A stretch of 11,690 nt of DNA from the NCBI GenBank assembly GCA_947165805.1, contig CAMVBT010000049.1, forward strand, positions 1-11,690. Direction: 5' to 3'. Source of the DNA: an uncultured Clostridia bacterium. Lineage in GTDB: Bacteria > Bacillota > Clostridia > Oscillospirales > Ruminococcaceae. A program made the position numbers and the translations under genes. The notes under the pieces were generated by a model. The model did not search any database, was not told where the DNA came from, and saw only the letters and a list, made by a program, of their open reading frames with translations. Shown here piece after piece: positions 566 through 11,690 of the stretch. The number at the start of each line of letters is the position of its first letter. The stretch's first letter is position 1.

Positions 566-593
566 TTGTATGACAAACATACAATCATACAAT
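566..593. promoter_or_regulatory. Palindromic operator with an extra tandem half-site
   Basis: TTGTATG (566-572), five bases, then CATACAA (578-584) form a perfect 7-bp inverted repeat. CATACAAT is then repeated head-to-tail at 578-585 and 586-593, so there are three half-sites in all. The array begins 2 bases after the -10 box and covers the expected transcription start, the position of a repressor site that blocks initiation. The likely binder is the GntR/FadR-type regulator encoded at the end of the same operon. That assignment is inferred from location and regulator class. Repression relieved by a sugar-acid ligand is the simplest model. Confidence 0.72.
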
Positions 594-595
594 AC

Positions 596-602
596 AAAGG
601 AG
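596..602 (+). promoter_or_regulatory. Ribosome binding site that fixes a TTG start for the dehydratase
   Basis: AAAGGAG at 596-602 is followed after 6 bases by TTG at 609, in frame with the dehydratase. The upstream in-frame ATG at 570 coincides with the predicted transcription start, lies inside the operator and has no ribosome binding site, so TTG 609 is the better start. Confidence 0.85.
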
Positions 603-608
603 AATATC

Positions 609-2315
609 TTGAAAAGTATCGGCGAAAGAGAATTATGGGCGCAGTTTGACGCATTGCAGCTTGGCTCCGGCTTTACGACCGGGGATATACGAAAGCCGCA
701 GATATTGGTCGAGGATGTGTACGGCGACTCGCACCCCGGAAGCGTTCACCTGAACAGACTGACCGAGCAGGTGAAGTACGGGGTATATCAGTCGGGCGGA
801 GTACCGTGTATGTATCACACGACCGATGTATGTGACGGGTGCGCTCAGGGGCATGACGGAATGAACATAGTTCTTGCTTCCCGCGAGGCTATTTGCGATA
901 TGGTGGAGGTACACGCCTCCGCTGTGCCGTGGGACGGTATGGTGCTGTCCTCGTCCTGCGACAAGTCCGTTCCGGCTCACCTTAAAGCTATGGCAAGAAT
1001 GGATATACCCGCGGTCTTTCTTCCCGGAGGTTCGATGCGTCCCGGTCCGTATCAGACCACATCTCTAAAAGCGGGAGAAATATCCCTTAAACAAAGGCGC
1101 GGGCAGGCAACTAAAACAGAGATACGCGACTACAAGCTTACAGGCTGTCCGTCTGTCGGAGCCTGTACATTCCTCGGTACCGCCTCCACAATGCAGTGTA
1201 TGGCGGAGGCTCTCGGAATGGCGATCCCCGGAAGCGCACTCGCTCCCGCTACTATGCGAGATATTCTTGATCATGCAAGGGCTTCCGGCATAGCTGTTAT
1301 GGCGCTTGTCGAAAAAGGCATAACGCCCTCGAAGATAATGACAGCCGAAGCATTCGAGAACGCGATCATTGTTCACAGTGCTATCGGCGGCTCGACAAAC
1401 GCGACCCTGCACCTTCCGGCGATAGCAAAGGAGCTTGGTATCGTGATAAAGCCGGAACTGTTCGACCGTATCAATCATAAGATACCTCATCTCGGGAATA
1501 TTGACCCGAGCGGACAGCATCTGACCGAGAGCTTCTGGTTTGCAGGCGGCGTTCCTTATGTTCAGCTTATGTTAAAGGATCACCTTCACCTTGATGTTAT
1601 GACGGTCACGGGAAAGACACTCGGCGAGAACCTTGAGGAACTGCGGGAGAACGGCTTTTTTGAAAGAAATCTCGGTTATCTCGCAAATTACGGGCTCAAA
1701 CGCAGCGATGTTATCCTGCCGCCGGAAAAGGTTAAGGAGATCGGAAGTATTGCCGTACTGAAAGGAAATATCGCCCCCGAAGGCAGTGTCATAAAATACT
1801 CAGCCTGCGTGAAGGAGATGCTTCATCATAAAGGAGCCGCCCGTGTTTTTGACAGCGAGGAGGACGCTCATAGCGCCGTGGTGGAAGGTAAAATAAACCC
1901 GCACGATGTAATGGTGATACGCTATGAAGGACCGCGGGGCTCGGGAATGCCCGAGCTTCTTATGACCACCGAAGCCATTGTCTGCGACGAACGGCTGAAC
2001 GGCACGGTGGCGCTGATAACAGACGGTCGGTTCAGCGGTGCAACAAGAGGCGCGGCGATAGGTCATATCTCCCCCGAAGCGGCAAGAGGCGGTCTTATCG
2101 CGTTTATCGAGGACGGAGATATTATTGAATACGATGTTGAAGCAAGGACGCTGAATGTTGTCGGGATAAACGGAAAGGAAATGCCGATAGAACAAGTCAA
2201 TGAGATACTGACCGAACGAAGCAGGCGCGGGATCATCCCAAGACCGGCACGCCGCGGCTTATTCGGGCGCTACACACGATCCGCTGAATCCGCAATGGAA
2301 GGAGCAGGCTACTGA
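609..2315 (+). CDS. IlvD/Edd-family sugar-acid dehydratase (YjhG/YagF-like)
   Basis: This is an iron-sulfur-dependent dehydratase predicted to turn an aldonate or related sugar acid into its 2-keto-3-deoxy derivative in the cytoplasm. Counted from the TTG start (568 aa), it shows [14 protein letters not shown] (C75, C78), [16 protein letters not shown] (C117), [15 protein letters not shown] (C180, C186), [34 protein letters not shown], and the C-terminal swivel motif [18 protein letters not shown]. The N-terminal cluster cysteine of IlvD and arabinonate dehydratase (PCxxH) is Gly44 here (HPGSVHL). As I recall, E. coli YjhG also lacks it, and other stretches look closest to YjhG/YagF, D-xylonate dehydratases of about 655 aa. 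Its stop overlaps the start of the aldolase (TGATG), and pairing with a YagE-like aldolase repeats the yjhGH/yagFE arrangement. It is not the branched-chain biosynthetic IlvD judging by context. The exact substrate (xylonate, gluconate, galactonate or other) is not determined. Confidence 0.88.
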
Positions 2316-3220
2316 TGAACGGACAGACAATAAGGTATATGACTCCGGCTGTTACTCCGATGCTGCCGAACGGAGAGCTCGACAAAGATTCCTGCGGGAA
2401 GCTGTACGAGCATCTGCTAAGCGGCGGAGTTGACGGTATCCTGATACTCGGCAGTATAGGCGAATTCTTCGGCTTTACACTTGAACAGAAGAAGGAGCTT
2501 ATCTGCTGTGCGGCGGGAGCGTTCGCGGGACGGTGCAGGCTGCTTGTCGGTACAACGTCAATGGTTTACAGAGAGATCGTTGAGCTGTCCGACTACGCGC
2601 TCGGACAAGGAGCGGACGGGATCGTGATAATCCCGCCATATTACTTCCACTTTACCGATGAAAGCGTATATGAGTATTACGATTCGCTCGCAAAAGACAT
2701 ACACGGGAATATTTATCTGTATAATTTCCCCGAACGGACCGGATATGAAATATCCCCGGATGTTGTCGTAAAGCTCGCGGCGGCACACCAGAATATCGTC
2801 GGTATAAAGGATACGATAAGCGGCGTCGATCACACGCGGGAGCTTATAAAGCGGGTAAGGCCGGTGCGGCCGGATTTTGAGATATATTCGGGCTTCGACG
2901 ACAATTTCGCGCATAATGTTCTTTGCGGAGGAAACGGCTGTATCGCGGGACTTTCAAATCTCTATCCCGAGCTTACCTCCGCGTGGGCGGAGGCTATGAG
3001 AAGCTCCGACCTGCAAAAGACCGCGGATTGCCAGCAAAGGATCGACAGGCTTATGGATATCTATTCGGTCGGTAAGCCGTTCGTACCGTTTATAAAAGCA
3101 GCTCTTGCCGCAAAGGGAGTGATCGCTCACTCTGTCGCAACAAAGCCTATGCCGACGGCAGCGGCGGAACAGCTTGCACGGATAAAAAACATTATGGAGG
3201 AATACGAAAATGGAAGGTAA
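2315..3220 (+). CDS. DapA-superfamily 2-keto-3-deoxy-sugar-acid aldolase (YagE/YjhH-like)
   Basis: This is a class I, Schiff-base aldolase of the dihydrodipicolinate synthase/N-acetylneuraminate lyase superfamily. It probably cleaves a 2-keto-3-deoxy acid into pyruvate and an aldehyde, such as glycolaldehyde or glyceraldehyde. It has 301 residues, the normal size. The GSIGEF motif stands at the GTTGES position of DapA, the catalytic Tyr136 is in YLYNFPERTGY, and Lys165 in GIKDT is the pyruvate-binding lysine. LYNFP, GIKDTI and the G(F/Y)DD segment match E. coli YagE rather than DapA. The gene starts at ATG 2315-2317, overlapping the dehydratase stop by one base, with AAGGAG at 2299-2304. Lysine biosynthesis is unlikely because the gene sits between a sugar-acid dehydratase and a glycosidase. 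Family is firm; substrate chain length is open. Confidence 0.9.
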   Translation: MNGQTIRYMTPAVTPMLPNGELDKDSCGKLYEHLLSGGVDGILILGSIGEFFGFTLEQKKELICCAAGAFAGRCRLLVGTTSMVYREIVELSDYALGQGADGIVIIPPYYFHFTDESVYEYYDSLAKDIHGNIYLYNFPERTGYEISPDVVVKLAAAHQNIVGIKDTISGVDHTRELIKRVRPVRPDFEIYSGFDDNFAHNVLCGGNGCIAGLSNLYPELTSAWAEAMRSSDLQKTADCQQRIDRLMDIYSVGKPFVPFIKAALAAKGVIAHSVATKPMPTAAAEQLARIKNIMEEYENGR

Positions 3221-4591
3221 GATCAAAATAGCCTATATCGGCGGCGGTTCAAAGCTCTGGGCGCGCACCTTTATGTCCGACCTCGCGGTCGCGGAAAACC
3301 TGTCCGGTGAGATAGCGCTGTATGATATAGATATGGAAGCCTCGGAGCGCAACGCAAGGATCGGCGGCTATATCAACAAAGACCCGCGGACAAAGTCAAA
3401 ATTTGAGTACCGGCTTTATGAGCGACTTGAAGACTCCCTTGACGGCGCGGATTTTGTAGTTATCTCCATACTTCCCGGAACATTCAGGGAAATGCGAAGC
3501 GATGTACACACCCCCGAAAAGTACGGTATCTATCAGTCTGTCGGCGACACGGTGGGACCGGGCGGCATACTTCGCGCAATGCGCACCGTGCCGATATACG
3601 AGGATTTTGCGAGGGCGATACGCGACACCTGCCCTAACGCTTGGGTCATCAATTTCACAAATCCCATGAGTGTCTGCACCAAAGTTCTGTATGATGTTTT
3701 CCCCGGTATCAAGGCGTTCGGGTGCTGCCATGAGGTGTTCCACGCGCAGGAATTTCTGTCCTGTGTGCTGAAGGAGATCAAGGGGATAAATGTTCACCGC
3801 AGCCGGATATACACCGATGCCTGCGGAGTCAATCACTTCACTTGGATAACGGAGGCAAAATACGGGAATATCGATCTGCTTTCATTGCTGCCGGAATTTA
3901 TTGACAGGTTTTATGAAGAAGGCTATTTTGAGCGCGAGGGACAGGATCGGTTCGCGTTCAGGACAGACCCGTTCGCTTACGGCAATTCCGCAAATACGGT
4001 GTGCTTGCCGCGGCGGGAGACCGTCATCTGGCGGAGTTTATGCCGAACCAATGGTATCTTAAAGATCCCGAGACCGTCAAGGAATGGCAGTTTGGACTTA
4101 CGACGGTCGATTTCCGCGAGAAACAACAGGCTGAGCGGATAGCTGAGAGCATAGAAATGGCGGAAGGACGCAAGGAGTTCCCGGTAGTGAAATCCACCGA
4201 GGAAGCGGTAGATCTGATGAAAGCGCTGCTCGGTTTTCAGAATATAGTATCAAACGTAAATATGCCCAACCTCGGACAGATGCCGCAGATGCCCCTCGGC
4301 AGCATTGTGGAAACAAACTGCGTCTTTTCCAACGATCAGGTGAAGCCGGTGGTGTCAAAGCCGCTTCCCGTGACTGTCGCAAATCTTGTATACAGGAGCT
4401 GCGCGAATATCGACGCGACCTACGAAGGGATAAAGGAACGCGACCTCGGTAAGCTCTACGCCGCGTTCGTAAATCAGCCGCTTTGCAACACGCTGACTAT
4501 GGAGCAGTCTATGGCTCTTTTCAAGGAAATGTGCTATAATACACGCGAATATCTGGACGATCATTTTGCGCTGGATAAATATTTCAAGTGA
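3210..4591 (+). pseudogene. GH4 alpha-glycuronidase-like glycosidase (LplD/AguA type), frameshifted
   Basis: GH4 enzymes hydrolyse alpha-glycosides using NAD+ and Mn2+ through an oxidation-elimination route. Seen here are the Rossmann motif IAYIGGGS (G11-S14), YQSVGDTVGPGG (D113), NPMS (N151), the metal-binding GCCHEV (C173, H174) and GVNHFTW (N208, H209). CHEV together with VGDTVGPGG fits the LplD galacturonidase/glucuronidase branch, not 6-phospho-glycosidases. The gene starts at ATG 3210 with GGAGG at 3196-3200, overlapping the aldolase by 11 nt. The first frame leaves the family after about residue 253 and ends at 4142. The family sequence resumes in the -1 frame as FRKYGVLAAAGDRHLAEFMP and runs to 4591. 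Adding one C to the CCC at 3968-3970 rejoins both parts into about 460 residues without loss. Either the gene is newly broken or the base is a sequencing error. Confidence 0.85.
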
Positions 4592-4620
4592 TCGGTAATT
4601 ATAAAGGACGGTGTGAAGAA

Positions 4621-5304
4621 ATGGAAGTAAATTCGATAAAAAGAGAGTCTGTCGCGGAGCAGATATTCGGTCAGCTCAAAGCAAAGATCGTAAGCGGTGA
4701 ATTGCGCCCCGGAGATAAACTGCCTACGGAAATGGAGCTCTGTGAGATGTACGGAGTGTCCCGCACAAGCGTTCGTCAGGCGCTTACCAATCTTTCTTCA
4801 ATGGATCTGATCGAAGCAAAGACCGGCGGCGGTACATTCGTGAAGAAAGCCGACGCGAGCAGGATAATGGATAAGCTCGTGCTGTTCACCTTCCTTGACG
4901 AGCGTTCTCTTTCGGAGATCGCGGAATTCCGCAGCATATTGGAGCCTGCCGTTGCAAGGCTTGCCTGCCAAAGAGCAACACCGGACGATATAGAAAAGCT
5001 GGACGGGATATACAGCCAAATGGAAAAACACCGGAATGATCTGACCGAATTTGCGAAGCTCGATCATCGGTTCCATACCGAATTGGCGCGGATAAGCCGG
5101 AACGCTTATATCATCAGGACATACGAGGCTATGGAGGAAATTCTTATCAATGCCTTTTCTCAGTTCGTTGTGGAAAACGGAAACCGCGGCGGCTGGCGTT
5201 ATCACAAGCAGATCATAGAGGCGTTCAGAAGCGGCGACGCGGGGCTTGCGGAAAGTATCATGCGTGAGCACATGGACAGGCTGGTCGAGGAACACGGGAA
5301 ATAA
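4621..5304 (+). CDS. GntR-family transcriptional regulator, FadR subfamily (FCD domain)
   Basis: This DNA-binding regulator probably controls the operon it terminates. With ATG 4621 as start it has 227 residues. The N-terminal winged helix-turn-helix spans about residues 10-75, with PGDKLPTEMELCEMYGVSRT and the wing TGGGTFV. The C-terminal all-helical FCD ligand domain follows. Its four usual metal ligands are all present: Asp148 and His152 (LDHRFH), His195 (YHKQ) and His217 (REHM). In this family they bind a divalent metal that contacts carboxylate effectors, which suits a sugar-acid inducer. An in-frame GTG at 4588 overlaps the GH4 stop and would add 11 residues; ATG is preferred because homologues normally start just before this KRESVAEQIF-like region, although AAAGGA at 4602-4607 is rather far away. 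The palindrome at 566 is the probable target. Confidence 0.9.
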   Translation: MEVNSIKRESVAEQIFGQLKAKIVSGELRPGDKLPTEMELCEMYGVSRTSVRQALTNLSSMDLIEAKTGGGTFVKKADASRIMDKLVLFTFLDERSLSEIAEFRSILEPAVARLACQRATPDDIEKLDGIYSQMEKHRNDLTEFAKLDHRFHTELARISRNAYIIRTYEAMEEILINAFSQFVVENGNRGGWRYHKQIIEAFRSGDAGLAESIMREHMDRLVEEHGK

Positions 5305-5372: not shown

Positions 5373-7091
5373 TTACATCATTGTCAGATAGAATTTCTGC
5401 AGGACGGAAAACGCGAGCTTTTTATGTGTCCTGTCGGCGGAAAGCAAACCTTTGGTGTTGAAATATCTCTGATATGCCGAAGTTCTGCGCGGGGAGCGGA
5501 AATCATTCAGTATCCACGGCGACATTCCTTTTATATAGCCTATTTTCGCTATCTCCTCGGTCTGCCGCTCGATAATATAAGCCTGACATTCCTCCGTGCC
5601 TTTGTCGTTTACGGTTCCGTGATGTCCGGCGTATGCGTCCGCGCCGAACTCCGATATTATTACCGGCTTTTCAGGTCGGCTGTTTTCAAAAAGCTCCGGG
5701 AGCTTGCTCCAATCCGCGATGTACCAGCCCATATACTCGTTAAGCCCTATTATGTCGAGCTTCTGTTCAAGTCTGTCCTCGATAGCGTTTTTGGCGAAGT
5801 TTGCAAGACAGGCTGCCGAGACAAGTCGGGTGCGGTCGAGCTCGTGAGCGGTATCGGCAAGACCTCCCATAAACTTAAGTCTTTCGTCCGTGTCGAAGTT
5901 TTCGTTGCCGACAGACCATATTATCACACTTGCGCGGTTGAAATCCCTTGTTATCAGCTCGCGGAGCTGGTTCTCCGCGTCATTTCGGGTGTCGTCGTTG
6001 CCGAACATAACGCCCCAGTAAACGGGAAGCTCCTCCCACAGCAGCAAGCCCTCTTCATCACACTGCTGCGCCATTCTTTCGCTGTGAGGATAGTGCGCGG
6101 CACGCATAAAGTTGCAGCCGAGATCCTTCGCGTTTCTTATATTTATGAGTCTGTCGTCATCGGTCAGCGCCCTTCCGTGATAAAAGTCGTCCTCGTGACA
6201 GCACACCCCGCGCAGAAATATCGGCTTGCCGTTAAGCAGTATCTCCATGCCACTGACCCGTATCTCGCGGAAGCCCACACGGTCGCGCACCTCGTCGTTT
6301 CCGCATCTGAGCGTAACATCGTAAAGCCGCGGCGATCCGGGCGACCACAGCTCCGGAGCCGCGTCGAATACAATTTCCCCTGTTCCGTCAGTAACGGGGA
6401 TATCGACACGCACATCAAGCTCGGATATGAACAGCTCCGCGATTTCGCTTACCGATTCGGACAGCTTTACAAAAGCGCGTATTTTACCGAAGCCGCTGTC
6501 GGGTTCGAGAGCAATACGAAAATCCTTGATGTGCAGCTTAGGTACCCGTATAAGCTCAATATCACGATAAACGCCGCCATAGTTGAACCAGTCGGTCACG
6601 GCGGACGGCACCTGCTCTTCACGGCGCGTACTGTCGGCGTGGATATGTATGCGGTTTTCGCGCTCAAGACTGTCCGTTATATCAAAATACGCCGGGGTGT
6701 TTCCGCCTTTATGTGTGCCGATATATTTCCTGTTCAGGAAAACTCTGCAATAATAATTGCAAGCGCCTATTTTAAGTATCACACGCTCGTCTTCCCGCTG
6801 TTTCTCATAAGTAAATCTGCGCGTGAAGTCCATACTCCCGTCGTACAGCTTGAATTCCGGCGCGGCTGTGTTCCAGCAGCACGGCAATGTCATAGTATCC
6901 CACTCATCGAACGAGAAATCCACGGGCAGAGTATTCCCGTTTTCGTCGTACAGGTTCTCCTCATACCATTTCCCGCTGAGAAAAGCATTGTACTGATCGA
7001 CCGCGTAGTGCCAAGTGCCGTTCAGCGACTCTTTTTCGCGGAAACGGTCGTATATCATATTTTCCGAACCGATGAAAACCTCGTTATCCAT
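5373..7091 (-). CDS. uidA: Beta-glucuronidase, glycoside hydrolase family 2
   Basis: This retaining enzyme removes beta-linked glucuronic acid from glycans or conjugated small molecules. It has 572 residues with no signal peptide, so it should be cytosolic. An N-terminal sugar-binding jelly roll (about 1-180, ending in [14 protein letters not shown]) is followed by an immunoglobulin-like domain (about 185-275) and a TIM barrel. Glu397 in VGNENF is the predicted acid/base and Glu481 in ISEFGADA the nucleophile. Asn545 and Lys547 in FNTKG form the N-x-K motif that recognises the uronate carboxylate and separates glucuronidases from galactosidases in this family. NEYMGWY also fits. The segment after WEELPVYWG is short compared with E. 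coli UidA, suggesting a gut-type enzyme without the long active-site loop 1. ATG 7091 lies 2 nt after the FBPase stop, with AAAGGAC 5 bases upstream, so translation is probably coupled. Confidence 0.92.
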
Positions 7092-7093
7092 TT

Positions 7094-9037
7094 TCAGTCC
7101 TTTATCCTCCGCTGACTTTCCTTTATCTCTCCCGAACGATACGCATTAAGAAGCTCCCGCAGGTCGTTTATCTGCGCAAGTATCTCGCGTCCTTTGTCGG
7201 TGTCGGAGATGTTCGCGCGGCGGTCGAGACGCTCGACAAGATGTATTTTCGGGGTATGCTCGCTCTCGCCGGGAATGAATGGATAATGCTCCGCGAGGTT
7301 CAGGCTGTGCGAGTCGAAGATAAGCGTGTAGCCTGCGATTCCCGTCGTTTTCTGATAGGCTTTGGAAATTCCGCCGTCTATGACGAACAGCCGTCCGTCC
7401 GCCTTGACGGGGTGTTCGCCGTTCTTGATCTTGACGGGAACATGACCGTTGATGATATGCCCCTTGTTCACATCGCCGACGAACAATCCGAGCAGCTTCT
7501 TGCACACATCGGCATTTTCCGAGAAGGCGTAGTACGAATTGTAATGCTCCTCGTGCAGCTCCTTGTCGTCGAGAAAATACCGCTCGAAGAACGCCATTTT
7601 GTCCTTGCCGTAAAGCGGCGACTTTGACCCGCACCACAGGTACAGCATAAAGTCACGGGCGTAGTCCTTCTGGGCTCCGTGCGGCAGGAAGTAAGCCTGA
7701 TTAGCTGTCTCGTCGAGCTTGTCGAGCAGCTCGCGCCCGCTGTACTCCGTGCCGTCTATCCAGAGGCTTTGCAGCTCGCAGTTCTCGTCCAGCGGGATAC
7801 ACCCGTGGAACAGCACGTTCCCGTTGCAAATCTTGTACATCGAGCCGTGGGTATATAGGAAGCGTATGTGCCTCTGTAATTTCTCGCTGTGACGGAACGT
7901 CGCCGACAGTACGGACATCAGATCCTTTTCGCCGTCCGAAAGCTCCAGCGGGTCGGACTTGTCAACAGTCGGAAAGCGGGTGTCCTTGAGCCTGTGGACT
8001 GTTCCGTTTATCTCAATTGTGCCGTCATCGAAGTTCACCCGCCTGAACATCACGCGGTCGCGCATTTCCCACTCGGGGTACTTTTCCATGAGCTGACCCT
8101 CGAGCTTGAGCTGAATGACAGTTATCGCCTTGTGCATTTTCGCCACCAGCTTCGTGTCAACGGGGTCATAGATGTTGTCGTCGAGCGTGCTCGGCATGAA
8201 CAGAGCGCATTCGTCGTCCTTATAGGTCTCGGCGGCGAATACCGCCAGCGCTCTTAGGTTCAGCCCGTAGCCGTCCTCTAAGATGTCGAAATTGTTGTAG
8301 CGCATAGAAATGCGAATGACGTTCGCGATAAGCGCCTGATTGCCGGCGGCAGCGCCCATCCAAGAAATGTCGTGATTGCCCCATTGAATGTCGATGTCGT
8401 GGAACTTCATCAGCTCGTCCATAATGATATCGGCGCGGGGTCCGCGGTCATAGATATCGCCGATGATGTGCAGCATATCTATCGAGAGCGCCTGTATCGT
8501 CCTGCACAGAGCCGCGATAAACTCCTCGGCTATCTGCGTATCGAGAATGGTGTTGATTATCTCGTCATAGTAAAAGTCCTTGTTCACATCGTCGGTAACG
8601 TTGAGCAGCTCGTCGAGTATGTACACAAGATCGCGCGGGACGCGCTTGCGGATGCGTGAGCGGGTGTATTTTGCCGAGACCGCTTCAAGCACGATTATCA
8701 GCCGATAGATCGTGAGCCTGCGCCATTCGTCGGTTATCTCGTCCGCCGCCGTCAGGCGTTTAATCTCCTTTTCGGGGTAGTAGATAAGCGTTGCGAGACG
8801 CTCGCGCTCGGCGTTCGGCACGGTCTTTCCGAGTACCATATCTATCTTGTTCTTTATCATTCCCGACGCGCTGCGCAGCATATGCAGGAACGCCTCATAC
8901 TCCCCATGCATATCGCTGAAAAAGTATTCGGTGCCTTTCGGAAGGCTTCGGATAGCCGAGAGATTGATTATCTCCGCGGCTGCACTTGCTGCAGTCGGGT
9001 ATTCCTTTGCAAGCAGTTCAAGGTATCTTTTGTCCAT
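7094..9037 (-). CDS. fbp: Fructose-1,6-bisphosphatase, class III
   Basis: It hydrolyses fructose-1,6-bisphosphate to fructose-6-phosphate, the committed gluconeogenic step, in the cytoplasm. The 647-residue length fits the large class III enzymes of Firmicutes. Metallophosphatase motifs are in order: [10 protein letters not shown] (D42, H44), [11 protein letters not shown] (D194, D197, R198), [10 protein letters not shown] (N221, H222, D223), THGSMYK and NGHVPVK near the C-terminus. ATG 9037 has AAAGGAT 8 bases upstream and starts 21 nt after the stop of the sensor-phosphatase gene; it ends 2 nt before the beta-glucuronidase start. Location beside a glucuronidase fits growth on uronic acids, where hexose phosphates must be rebuilt from trioses. 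That link is inferred from context. Confidence 0.96.
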
Positions 9038-9058: not shown

Positions 9059-11254
9059 TTATTGCCCGTTTCCCAAAAAATCGAAGCAAAGAATCGTAAC
9101 ATCGTCAAAATGACCGGCATTTCCCGTAAATTCATCCACACGGGCTCCGAGAAGCTTTACCGTTTCGGAAGCGGAAAGATCAATATTGCTGTTCAGAGCC
9201 TCAAGCATTGCTTCGATACCGAAACGCGCACCCGCCGCGGATTTAGCTTCCGGCACGCCATCCGTATAAAGCAATACTCTGTCGCCGGATTCCAGCTTCA
9301 TCTGCTCGTCATAATAATCAATATTCTCAGCAGCTGCAAGCGGCGGACAATTATCTGAAACCGCGATCTCATATTCGGAGCCGGCTCTTCTGAAAACAGG
9401 GTATTCATGTCCTGCATTGGAATACGTCATCAGACCGGTCGAGAGGTCTATTATAGCAAGCCAAACCGTAACAAACAGACCGGACGCATTATTTTCGCAA
9501 AGTCTGGTGTTAACATTGGAAAGCACTTCTGCAGGCGAGCCTCCGCCCATAGACTGATCATGTATAAGTGTCTTGGCTATGACCATAAATAATGCAGCCG
9601 GAACTCCTTTTCCGGAAACGTCAGCCATTACAAGAGCTATTCTGTCATCATCTATAAGGAAGAAATCATAGAAATCGCCGCCGATCTCCTTCGCGGGAGT
9701 CATAGTAGCGTAAATATCGAAATCCGTTCGGCCCGGAAATGCCGGAAAAACTGACGGCAGCATATCGGACTGTATTTTTGCTGCGACACCGAGCTCTGCT
9801 GCTATTCGCTCGTTTTCGCTTACAAGATTACGGTTCTTTCTGTCCAATTCCGCAAGAAGTATATTCTGGTTTTTCAGTGCGTCTATAGTTCTGACGGCAG
9901 AGCTCAGCTGATATGTTACCAGTTCAACTTCATCAAAAAATGACTCGTTTCCGGGTTCAACAAGAGCTATGCCATACTGATTTTCAGCACTGTACAAATC
10001 AACAGCGATAAAAGTCCGGCGCCTGTCATTCGGAAGATGAATGTTGTCAAAGGCTTCCGGAACCGTCAGTTTCTGTTCATTCTCCGGTACCGAAAAGAGA
10101 GTCTTGCCGTAGCAATATGATTTAAAAAGCAAGGGAAGGTTTCTTGGGAACGTATCTTCCATCCGATGCCTGATCGGCTTCTCATAGACATAAATATATC
10201 CTGTATCGGCACCAATGCAGCTTAATTGCTTCAGAATCTCAGAATAGCTCTTTTCGGTGTCTCCACCAAACATCATCGTATCACGGATAAAAATGTTTTC
10301 AAGGTGTGTGCGTTCCTCGTATTTTTCAACGGCATACTTTTTGTGACCCTTGTCAACGGTTTGCGGCATATCGTCGGTAGGACAGGATGCTCTCTGAACA
10401 AAGCTCGTTTTTACATAGTGCCTGTCATCCGGGATCTTGTTAAGAAAGTTCACAGCCTTTTCGACCGAGACTGCTCCAAGCATTTCTGCATCAGCACGGA
10501 CAGATGACATTTCGGGCGAAAGGACACGACAGAACGGCTGGTCATCAAAGCCTATCACGGCAATATCCTCACCGACTCTGATACCTCTTTCCGCAAGAGC
10601 TTCGTATACTTTTGATGCTACTATATCATTTATGCACAATATGGCATCAAGTTCCGGATTTCTTTCAAGAAACGGACGTGCATCATAGATACTTTCATGC
10701 GCAAGATCACATTCGGTGATATATTGTTCTCTGTACCTGATCCCGTTACGCTCAAGACTTTCTTTGTAGGCTTCAAACCTTTCCGCACATTCGGAATTGT
10801 TCAGGTTTCCGACCATATATCCTATATTCTTATAACCGTGTTCTATCAGAAAATCGACAGTTTCCGAAACACCTGCGCGATTATCGTATTGCAGGAAATC
10901 ATAGCCTTCTATCTCAGATGCCACACTAAGAACAGGCGTATCACCGAGACTGTCAAGAAACGCTTTTCTCTGATCGCCGGCGTAAGCGTAAGCTATTGTT
11001 CCGACTGCAGTTATAAGATAATCGAGTTCAGCCGCAGCCGCAATGTCGAATAATACATTATATTGGTATTCATATTTTATATCGTATTGTTCATATTTGT
11101 TCTGTATTCCGATATATTTCCCCGGGAAGATAACAAGGTTTGCATCAAGTTCCGCGGCTCGGCGAATCGCACCCTTTGCAATGCCGTTACTGAAAGCGTC
11201 AGTGATATTTGCTATCAGCAGACCGATGTTATATCGCTTTTCGTGCTGTGCCAT
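9059..11254 (-). CDS. Cytosolic LacI-type ligand-binding domain fused to a SpoIIE/RsbU-type PP2C phosphatase
   Basis: This is a 731-residue sensor phosphatase. Residues about 8-285 form a periplasmic-binding-protein-like fold of the LacI/GalR kind (IGLLIANITDAFSNGIAKG, HGYKNIGYMVG, AILCINDIVASKVYEAL, IAVIGFDDQPFCR). There is no DNA-binding helix-turn-helix, signal peptide or membrane segment, so it should sense a cytosolic ligand. A middle domain (about 310-450) resembles the GAF-like linker seen in some PBP-GGDEF proteins. A helical stretch (about 455-490, LLAELDRKNRNLVSENERIA) leads into the phosphatase: GGDFYDF (D527), ADVSGKG (D545), NAGHEYP, YTDGVPEA and FDDVTIL (D717, D718), the metal ligands of this family. 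Such phosphatases dephosphorylate STAS anti-anti-sigma factors; no STAS partner lies in the window. ATG 11254 is 6 nt past the GGDEF stop. Its GGGAGG (11269-11274) is 14 nt away, so coupled translation is likely. Confidence 0.88.
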   Translation of the reverse strand: MAQHEKRYNIGLLIANITDAFSNGIAKGAIRRAAELDANLVIFPGKYIGIQNKYEQYDIKYEYQYNVLFDIAAAAELDYLITAVGTIAYAYAGDQRKAFLDSLGDTPVLSVASEIEGYDFLQYDNRAGVSETVDFLIEHGYKNIGYMVGNLNNSECAERFEAYKESLERNGIRYREQYITECDLAHESIYDARPFLERNPELDAILCINDIVASKVYEALAERGIRVGEDIAVIGFDDQPFCRVLSPEMSSVRADAEMLGAVSVEKAVNFLNKIPDDRHYVKTSFVQRASCPTDDMPQTVDKGHKKYAVEKYEERTHLENIFIRDTMMFGGDTEKSYSEILKQLSCIGADTGYIYVYEKPIRHRMEDTFPRNLPLLFKSYCYGKTLFSVPENEQKLTVPEAFDNIHLPNDRRRTFIAVDLYSAENQYGIALVEPGNESFFDEVELVTYQLSSAVRTIDALKNQNILLAELDRKNRNLVSENERIAAELGVAAKIQSDMLPSVFPAFPGRTDFDIYATMTPAKEIGGDFYDFFLIDDDRIALVMADVSGKGVPAALFMVIAKTLIHDQSMGGGSPAEVLSNVNTRLCENNASGLFVTVWLAIIDLSTGLMTYSNAGHEYPVFRRAGSEYEIAVSDNCPPLAAAENIDYYDEQMKLESGDRVLLYTDGVPEAKSAAGARFGIEAMLEALNSNIDLSASETVKLLGARVDEFTGNAGHFDDVTILCFDFLGNGQ

Positions 11255-11260
11255 AGTATG

Positions 11261-11690
11261 TTACATCGCCTCCCGCTTTTTCTTTTCCTTTTTCTCGATA
11301 TACAGCAGATTGTCGGCAACGCTTATCGCGCTTTGAAGGTCATAGCCGTTGCGGATATACGCGTCGTGAACGCCGAGAGAGATACTGAATTTGTACGGCT
11401 TGTTTCGTCCTGCGTTGATTTCGTTTATAAACCTGTCACGCTCCGCGAGGATATCCCACGGTCTCAGATCGGCACCGGACGGCATTATGGCGGCAAATTC
11501 GTCTCCGCCCATTCTTCCGATCACGGCTTTGTCTCCGAGTATCTTATACAGACATTTTGCAACGAGCTTTATGCAGAAATCACCTTCTTCATGACCGAAC
11601 GTATCATTTACGGCCTTGAGATTATCCATATCCGCGTAACATACGATGAACGAGCTGTCCGGGCAGGCTTTTATCAGCTTCTCCGCTTCG
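11261..11690 (-). CDS. GGDEF-domain diguanylate cyclase (N-terminus beyond window)
   Basis: The frame is open to the right edge and gives 142 C-terminal residues. They hold most of a GGDEF domain: ADMDNLKAVNDTFGHEEGD (substrate- and metal-binding Asp and Asn), GRMGGDEF with an intact GGDEF signature, and FSISLGV. The tail is strongly basic (EKKEKKKREAM). The domain should make cyclic di-GMP from two GTP. The inhibitory I-site RxxD, expected five residues before GGDEF, reads GDKA, so product inhibition through that site is unlikely. The sensory part lies outside the window. It directly precedes the sensor phosphatase with a 6-nt gap and is surely in the same transcript. A LacI-type sensor domain in the missing part is plausible because such PBP-GGDEF proteins are common in Clostridia, but this is not visible here. 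Confidence 0.9.
   Translation of the reverse strand, partial: EAEKLIKACPDSSFIVCYADMDNLKAVNDTFGHEEGDFCIKLVAKCLYKILGDKAVIGRMGGDEFAAIMPSGADLRPWDILAERDRFINEINAGRNKPYKFSISLGVHDAYIRNGYDLQSAISVADNLLYIEKKEKKKREAM

Follow-up and report, generated by a model that had tools for sequence, protein, structure and literature searches.

The gene at positions 9059 to 11254 (minus strand) of the DNA analysed here, an 11,690-nt stretch of contig C49 from an uncultured Clostridia bacterium (hereafter the window), encodes a real, rare sensor–output combination, i.e., a LacI-type sensor joined to a PP2C phosphatase (LacI-PP2C). The window genome (G000) is a metagenome-assembled genome (MAG) that is 80% complete. 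We regard the chances as evenly balanced that LacI-PP2C is a cytosolic one-component sensor phosphatase that arose by output exchange, with a mannan ligand, a STAS-domain target, and a twin that sets c-di-GMP. The features relevant to this reading are as follows:

9059..11254, minus strand: protein of 731 aa with LacI sensor, middle domain, coiled coil, and PP2C module of the SpoIIE–RsbU type (ORF and domain scan)
10385..11233, minus strand: LacI-type ligand domain with periplasmic-binding fold, residues 8-290
9947..10333, minus strand: middle domain, residues about 308-436, conserved, probably undescribed, and common to LacI-GGDEF proteins
9761..9946, minus strand: long linker helix, residues 437-498
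9815-9835, minus strand: apparent crossover between residues 474 and 480, where the sequence changes from the sensor family to that of the phosphatases
9062..9814, minus strand: PP2C phosphatase module, residues 481-731, with metal residues D527, D545, D665, D717, and D718
11261..11689, minus strand: C-terminal end of the twin LacI-GGDEF with intact GGDEF motif; the contig end cuts the gene (domain scan)
7094..9037, minus strand: Firmicute-type fructose-1,6-bisphosphatase (fbp), 21 nt downstream of LacI-PP2C (FBPase_2, 913.5 bits)
5373..7091, minus strand: GH2 glycosidase, 2 nt downstream of fbp (domain scan)

A Pfam scan of the 731-aa protein recovered the ligand-binding core typical of the LacI/GalR family and a SpoIIE domain (157.1 bits, cut-off 25), and found neither a helix-turn-helix (PF00356) nor a GGDEF domain. 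A longer N-terminus carrying a helix-turn-helix was ruled out, because an in-frame stop lies two codons upstream of the ATG. All PP2C metal-binding Asp residues are kept, and the metal site is intact on alignment. The initial annotation, which had described a LacI ligand domain without helix-turn-helix and a SpoIIE/RsbU-type phosphatase with its metal-binding Asp residues, was thus borne out, and its proposal of a cytosolic LacI-type sensor on a partner-switching-type phosphatase is further supported by STAS proteins in the genome. LacI-PP2C shares the PP2C fold, the metal site, and a long helix leading into the PP2C domain with phosphatases of the RsbU, RsbP, and RssB type. However, the sensors of the latter are given as PAS, GAF, receiver, HAMP, or RsbU N-terminal domains in the available text of PMC12143880, whereas LacI-PP2C has a LacI-type ligand domain. 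Unlike the repressors of the LacI/GalR family (CcpA, RbsR, and CelR), it lacks the helix-turn-helix and has an enzymatic output. In a full-length AlphaFold model the PP2C domain was good and the N-terminal half poor, as only seven rows covered the sensor, which was then folded separately.

Between sensor and linker lies the middle domain, whose mean column identity is 59% in our alignment of the LacI-GGDEF/LacI-PP2C family (A3, 20 rows). It had no Pfam match at E-values up to 10 in the four members scanned and no match in a PDB sequence search; the one weak NCBIfam match, to Nudix (E = 0.012), occurred in one of 20 members. Its order of helices and strands is only suggestive of a GAF domain, and the structure search (VIA-align) covered model residues 3-295 only. 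A comparison with 14 GAF_2 rows by hhalign gave a probability of 0.2%, and the assignment as GAF is therefore unsupported by any of the sequence and profile comparisons (Pfam, PDB, NCBIfam, and hhalign). The domain probably represents an undescribed family.

LacI-PP2C directly follows its twin LacI-GGDEF in the window. Another contig of this genome, C28, breaks off within a LacI-sensor gene, just ahead of the expected start of GGDEF, and this gene is 69% identical to LacI-PP2C over residues 5-480; it is likely to be the N-terminal part of the twin (L037:12155-13616). In G058, a genome of the same genus, one contig (L068) holds a complete LacI-GGDEF gene with its TAA and, after 6 nt, LacI-PP2C as far as codon 23, and a second contig begins at codon 23 of LacI-PP2C and continues into an fbp gene with 91% identity to that of the window. 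Read across these two contigs, which meet at codon 23, the gene order in G058 is LacI-GGDEF, LacI-PP2C, fbp. The ends of C28 and C49 map 22 nt apart on the G058 sequence, and the same order presumably holds in G000. The GGDEF gene ends in a stop codon that shares its frame with the LacI-PP2C ATG (TAA CAT ACT ATG; window 11255-11260), and a GGGAGG motif is found 14 nt upstream of this ATG, within the GGDEF gene. LacI-PP2C, fbp, and GH2 lie on the same strand and form a probable operon.

The window comes from a metagenome assembly, and its contig breaks off within a neighbouring paralogue, so that LacI-PP2C could in principle be a chimera assembled from a LacI-GGDEF gene and a PP2C gene. We rejected this explanation, which appears next to impossible, because separate copies exist: the G058 copy is 94% identical over residues 23-731 and precedes the same downstream fbp, and a third LacI-PP2C (P0001), representing 12 member sequences, is 96% identical. 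All three have the same junction. Likewise, we consider it very unlikely that LacI-PP2C is a dispensable, decaying hybrid gene without function. Only three sequences represent it, the dN/dS between G000 and G058 reaches 0.83 for the last 60 PP2C residues, and the nucleotide differences between the two genes are patchy. However, dN/dS is 0.03 for the PP2C core (residues 480-671), 0.18 for the LacI part, and 0.22 for the middle domain, and these parts are under purifying selection in this comparison. In addition, the frame is open in all three records, with the G058 copy lacking its first 22 codons at the contig end, and LacI-PP2C keeps the common residue at 110 of the 114 sensor columns that are conserved in at least 90% of 78 relatives. 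The two genes differ at 89 of 2130 nt, compared to 83.9% identity in the fbp stretch behind them, which hints at an exchange of the LacI-PP2C gene between strains. We read the patchy differences as mosaic recombination. Residues 672-731 (window 9062-9241, minus strand) are strongly unlike the two other copies, most of the remainder being near-identical; apart from the G058 copies, the best match to this tail among the top 12 rows from the retrieved loci was 51%.

With respect to descent, the sensor and the phosphatase point to different families. Both protein searches scored about 8000 candidates each. Among the best 120 of 162 sensor relatives, 117 list GGDEF, P0001 alone lists SpoIIE, and the remaining two (P0056 and P0071) are listed without an output domain. 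LacI-PP2C shares 64–72% identity with the LacI-GGDEF relatives P0002-P0012 across its first two thirds. A periplasmic-binding domain appears in P0001 alone among the best 120 of 7992 PP2C relatives; the majority of the rest have HAMP, Cache, or HATPase domains or no further domain listed. In a tree of 33 sensors, one clade (100/100) united the three LacI-PP2C proteins and was nested in a clade of 18 rows (100/100) whose other 15 rows are LacI-GGDEF proteins. The initial annotation was therefore right about the type of sensor, but the direct rewiring of a LacI repressor that it proposed is not what we found: LacI-PP2C is most closely related to LacI-GGDEF proteins, and GGDEF appears to be the output that was exchanged. 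The own-genome twin, whose row in the tree ends ahead of its GGDEF, is not the sister of LacI-PP2C, and a plain tandem duplication is thus not shown. Between the twins, synonymous sites have reached saturation (dN 0.16), which points either to an old split or to an origin of the hybrid in a different LacI-GGDEF lineage.

The junction could be placed within the linker. Residues 471, 473, and 474 match the LacI-GGDEF type, and residues 480, 483, 484, and 487-488 match the PP2C type, which puts the crossover between residues 474 and 480. The phase of the hydrophobic repeat, taken in three windows, is nearly the same in both sets of relatives, one residue corresponding to 103 degrees: the values were 116–144 degrees for 118 of the 119 LacI-sensor relatives P0002-P0120 (two of these rows list no GGDEF) and 103–152 degrees for all 119 PP2C relatives P0121-P0239, and by our own estimate a fit this good would arise by chance in about 1 of 3.5 cases. 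At residues 474-480, PP2C appears to have taken the place of GGDEF with the coiled-coil phase kept, and the exchange would have run from GGDEF to PP2C. The matching phase fits the model in PMC12143880, the available text of which proposes a shared dimeric coiled-coil linker for sensors driving phosphatases, diguanylate cyclases, and kinases, and describes the degree of modular sensor exchange as still to be determined.

The genes next to the sensors make a cytosolic beta-mannan product the likeliest ligand of the LacI domain. On C28, genes for a solute-binding protein and two permeases are divergent from LacI-GGDEF, followed by ManA, GH130, a LysR regulator, an EAL-domain protein, and a GH2 with mannosidase Ig domains; G058 has the same mannan-type set except EAL, its GH2 being split into two ORFs. 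The GH130 phosphorylase gene is frameshifted in G000 (L037:5822-7013, minus strand) and open in G058 (396 aa; L068:7138-8328). The best solved matches of the binding protein were BlMnBP1 entries with mannotriose or mannopentaose (E = 2.6e-84; next protein 3.4e-11), and the manA equivalog match in the cluster was above its cut-off. The binding protein and both permeases adjoin the LacI sensor gene at seven of 18 loci, a count that leaves out L067, the locus holding LacI-PP2C: at all four close loci (L037, L068, L069, and L070) and at three of 14 distant loci (L158, L161, and L166), several of which are cut by contig ends. A further locus (L156) has the binding protein without permeases. In the stretches fetched from G033 and G048 (L069 and L070), the transporter was present, and ManA, GH130, and mannosidase were unmatched. 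As far as the available text of two papers on beta-mannan loci of Firmicutes goes (PMC6385246, PMC8262883), such transporters and GH130 enzymes are paired with a LacI-type regulator; the loci of Roseburia intestinalis and Faecalibacterium prausnitzii resemble the present one in their mannan-binding ABC transporter, GH130 phosphorylases, and LacI-type regulator, but this regulator is described as transcriptional, whereas here the LacI sensor is joined to GGDEF and PP2C outputs. Mannan-type neighbours, BlMnBP1 match, and published loci together make a mannan product our best guess. Regarding other genes of the C28 cluster, the EAL-domain protein (L037:3092-4777, minus strand) has matches adjoining LacI sensor genes in two distant genomes (L159 and L161). 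EAL and LacI-GGDEF possibly form a pair that makes and breaks c-di-GMP.

The same sensor phosphatase might also bind a ligand other than a mannan product, e.g., a uronate or aldonate from the convergent window genes or a general sugar phosphate, which we consider rather unlikely. Convergent to LacI-PP2C (window 570-5304, plus strand) lie genes for an IlvD/EDD-family dehydratase, a DHDPS-family aldolase, a GH4 glycosidase, and a GntR/FCD regulator, a cluster that looks like a sugar-acid route; furthermore, the GH2 of the probable operon resembles a beta-glucuronidase (below NCBIfam cut-offs), the gene directly downstream of LacI-PP2C, fbp, belongs to central carbon metabolism, and the sensor family also occurs at loci without the transporter. 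However, the sugar-acid-type genes lie on the other strand, next to a GntR regulator of their own, and all close loci have the divergent transporter, accompanied by ManA, GH130, and GH2 in G000 and G058. A sugar acid, one guess of the initial annotation, is consequently not favoured; of its other guess, a sugar phosphate, mannose phosphate is still a possible ligand, with C28 favouring the beta-mannan product. As a side observation, the GH4 gene consists of two overlapping ORFs in different frames (window 3210-4142 and 4001-4591, plus strand) with the N- and C-terminal GH4 domains, respectively, which is a frameshift or an assembly error.

Turning to the output, STAS domains, proposed as a test of partner switching, are present in the genome, with 12 matches in G000 (20 in G058) alongside 11 HATPase_c_2 matches, eight of them above cut-off. 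Several PP2C paralogues of G000 adjoin STAS or HATPase_c_2 genes; no STAS gene was found beside LacI-PP2C in the window or on the 4-kb contig of G058. A search for SigB/F/G in G000 (80% complete) returned SigG-like, SigF-like, RpoD, and FliA-type sigma factors and one partial match, none of which is best described as SigB. The SigF-like gene stands with SpoIIAB (above cut-off) and a STAS gene, and the genome encodes a separate SpoIIE (SpoIIE_N plus SpoIIE); SigF is probably not the target of LacI-PP2C, since it has this dedicated phosphatase. The expectation of a STAS target therefore stood, while that of an alternative sigma factor was weakened, and the likeliest, albeit unproven, target is another STAS protein. 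An unlikely alternative is that LacI-PP2C dephosphorylates a non-STAS phosphoprotein, possibly tied to c-di-GMP signalling as in SiaA/SiaD; in Pseudomonas aeruginosa, SiaA is tied to SiaD. The adjacent GGDEF twin, the lack of a visible STAS gene at the locus, a weak similarity to the SiaA model (65.3 bits against a cut-off of 700), and the SiaA-PP2C structure 6k4e among the closest solved matches would agree with such a target. However, the closest solved matches also include P. aeruginosa RssB and the RsbU domain of Rv1364c, a protein in which, according to the available text of PMC12143880, this domain is joined to an anti-sigma and an anti-anti-sigma domain, and the genome is rich in STAS and HATPase_c_2 genes.

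We found LacI-PP2C in two of 71 genomes of the genus, including the window genome (up to 15 candidates scored per genome, best first among the matches listed), and, in draws of 396 genomes from the family and 394 from the order, only in G000 (two candidates scored per genome; genomes overlap between the draws). Of 87 loci on GTDB contigs, 80 were kept, and among these the G058 contig alone has both halves. Viral contigs held no relative of LacI-PP2C, and none of 2997 matching plasmid records covered 80% of the query (20 rows among the matches listed). As all searches used LacI-PP2C as query, these figures apply to its relatives, and unrelated fusions with a diverged LacI part would be missed. 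Among the papers listed, titles and opening lines of abstracts named no LacI-PP2C protein. In G000, only two LacI helix-turn-helix domains were found (C16 and C120), and LacI sensors on signalling outputs comprise LacI-PP2C, its twin, a second LacI-GGDEF (C35), and a LacI-GGDEF-EAL (C300). The latter (L201:3-3314, plus strand) is cut by both contig ends and misses its N-terminus.

Taken as a mechanism, the starting point would be a LacI-GGDEF lineage with genes divergent from a manno-oligosaccharide-type ABC transporter. In one copy, GGDEF would have been swapped at the linker for a PP2C module of a kind common in the same genus, leaving LacI-PP2C in tandem with an unswapped LacI-GGDEF. The LacI domain would bind a beta-mannan breakdown product in the cytosol and close, and this change would pass through the middle domain to a dimeric helical linker, which would set the dimer state of PP2C and thereby the dephosphorylation of a STAS-domain protein; both the dimeric allostery and the sign of the response are what we infer here. 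The twin would sense the same or a similar signal and set c-di-GMP. More tentatively, and with a lower probability than this scheme, the two paralogues could form a two-output unit in which one mannan-derived sugar controls both c-di-GMP and a partner-switching phosphatase. Given their common sensor and linker, the paralogues could assemble into mixed dimers, which could adjust the two outputs relative to each other.

LacI-GGDEF proteins of Ruminococcaceae/Oscillospiraceae-like bacteria (P0002-P0012, C28, G058, G033, and G048), whose sensor is a Peripla_BP_3 domain, have sensor, middle domain, and linker in common with LacI-PP2C and differ in their output, which is GGDEF instead of PP2C. Our literature search turned up no functional study of them, and in the available text of PMC8846402 the LacI-like Periplas_BP domain of c-di-GMP proteins is mentioned only as putatively sensory. 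The finding directs attention to a family of cytosolic sugar sensors of the LacI type that is sizeable, apparently unstudied, and found in Clostridia of the gut and rumen; within it, LacI-PP2C would link mannan sensing to partner switching. Evolution seems to have carried out the sensor/output exchange itself, in neighbouring genes with 69% identical sensor and linker and a different output. The pair is therefore a natural test of the exchangeable-linker hypothesis and, if our reading is true, would demonstrate from nature that one coiled-coil linker accepts either output, GGDEF or PP2C.
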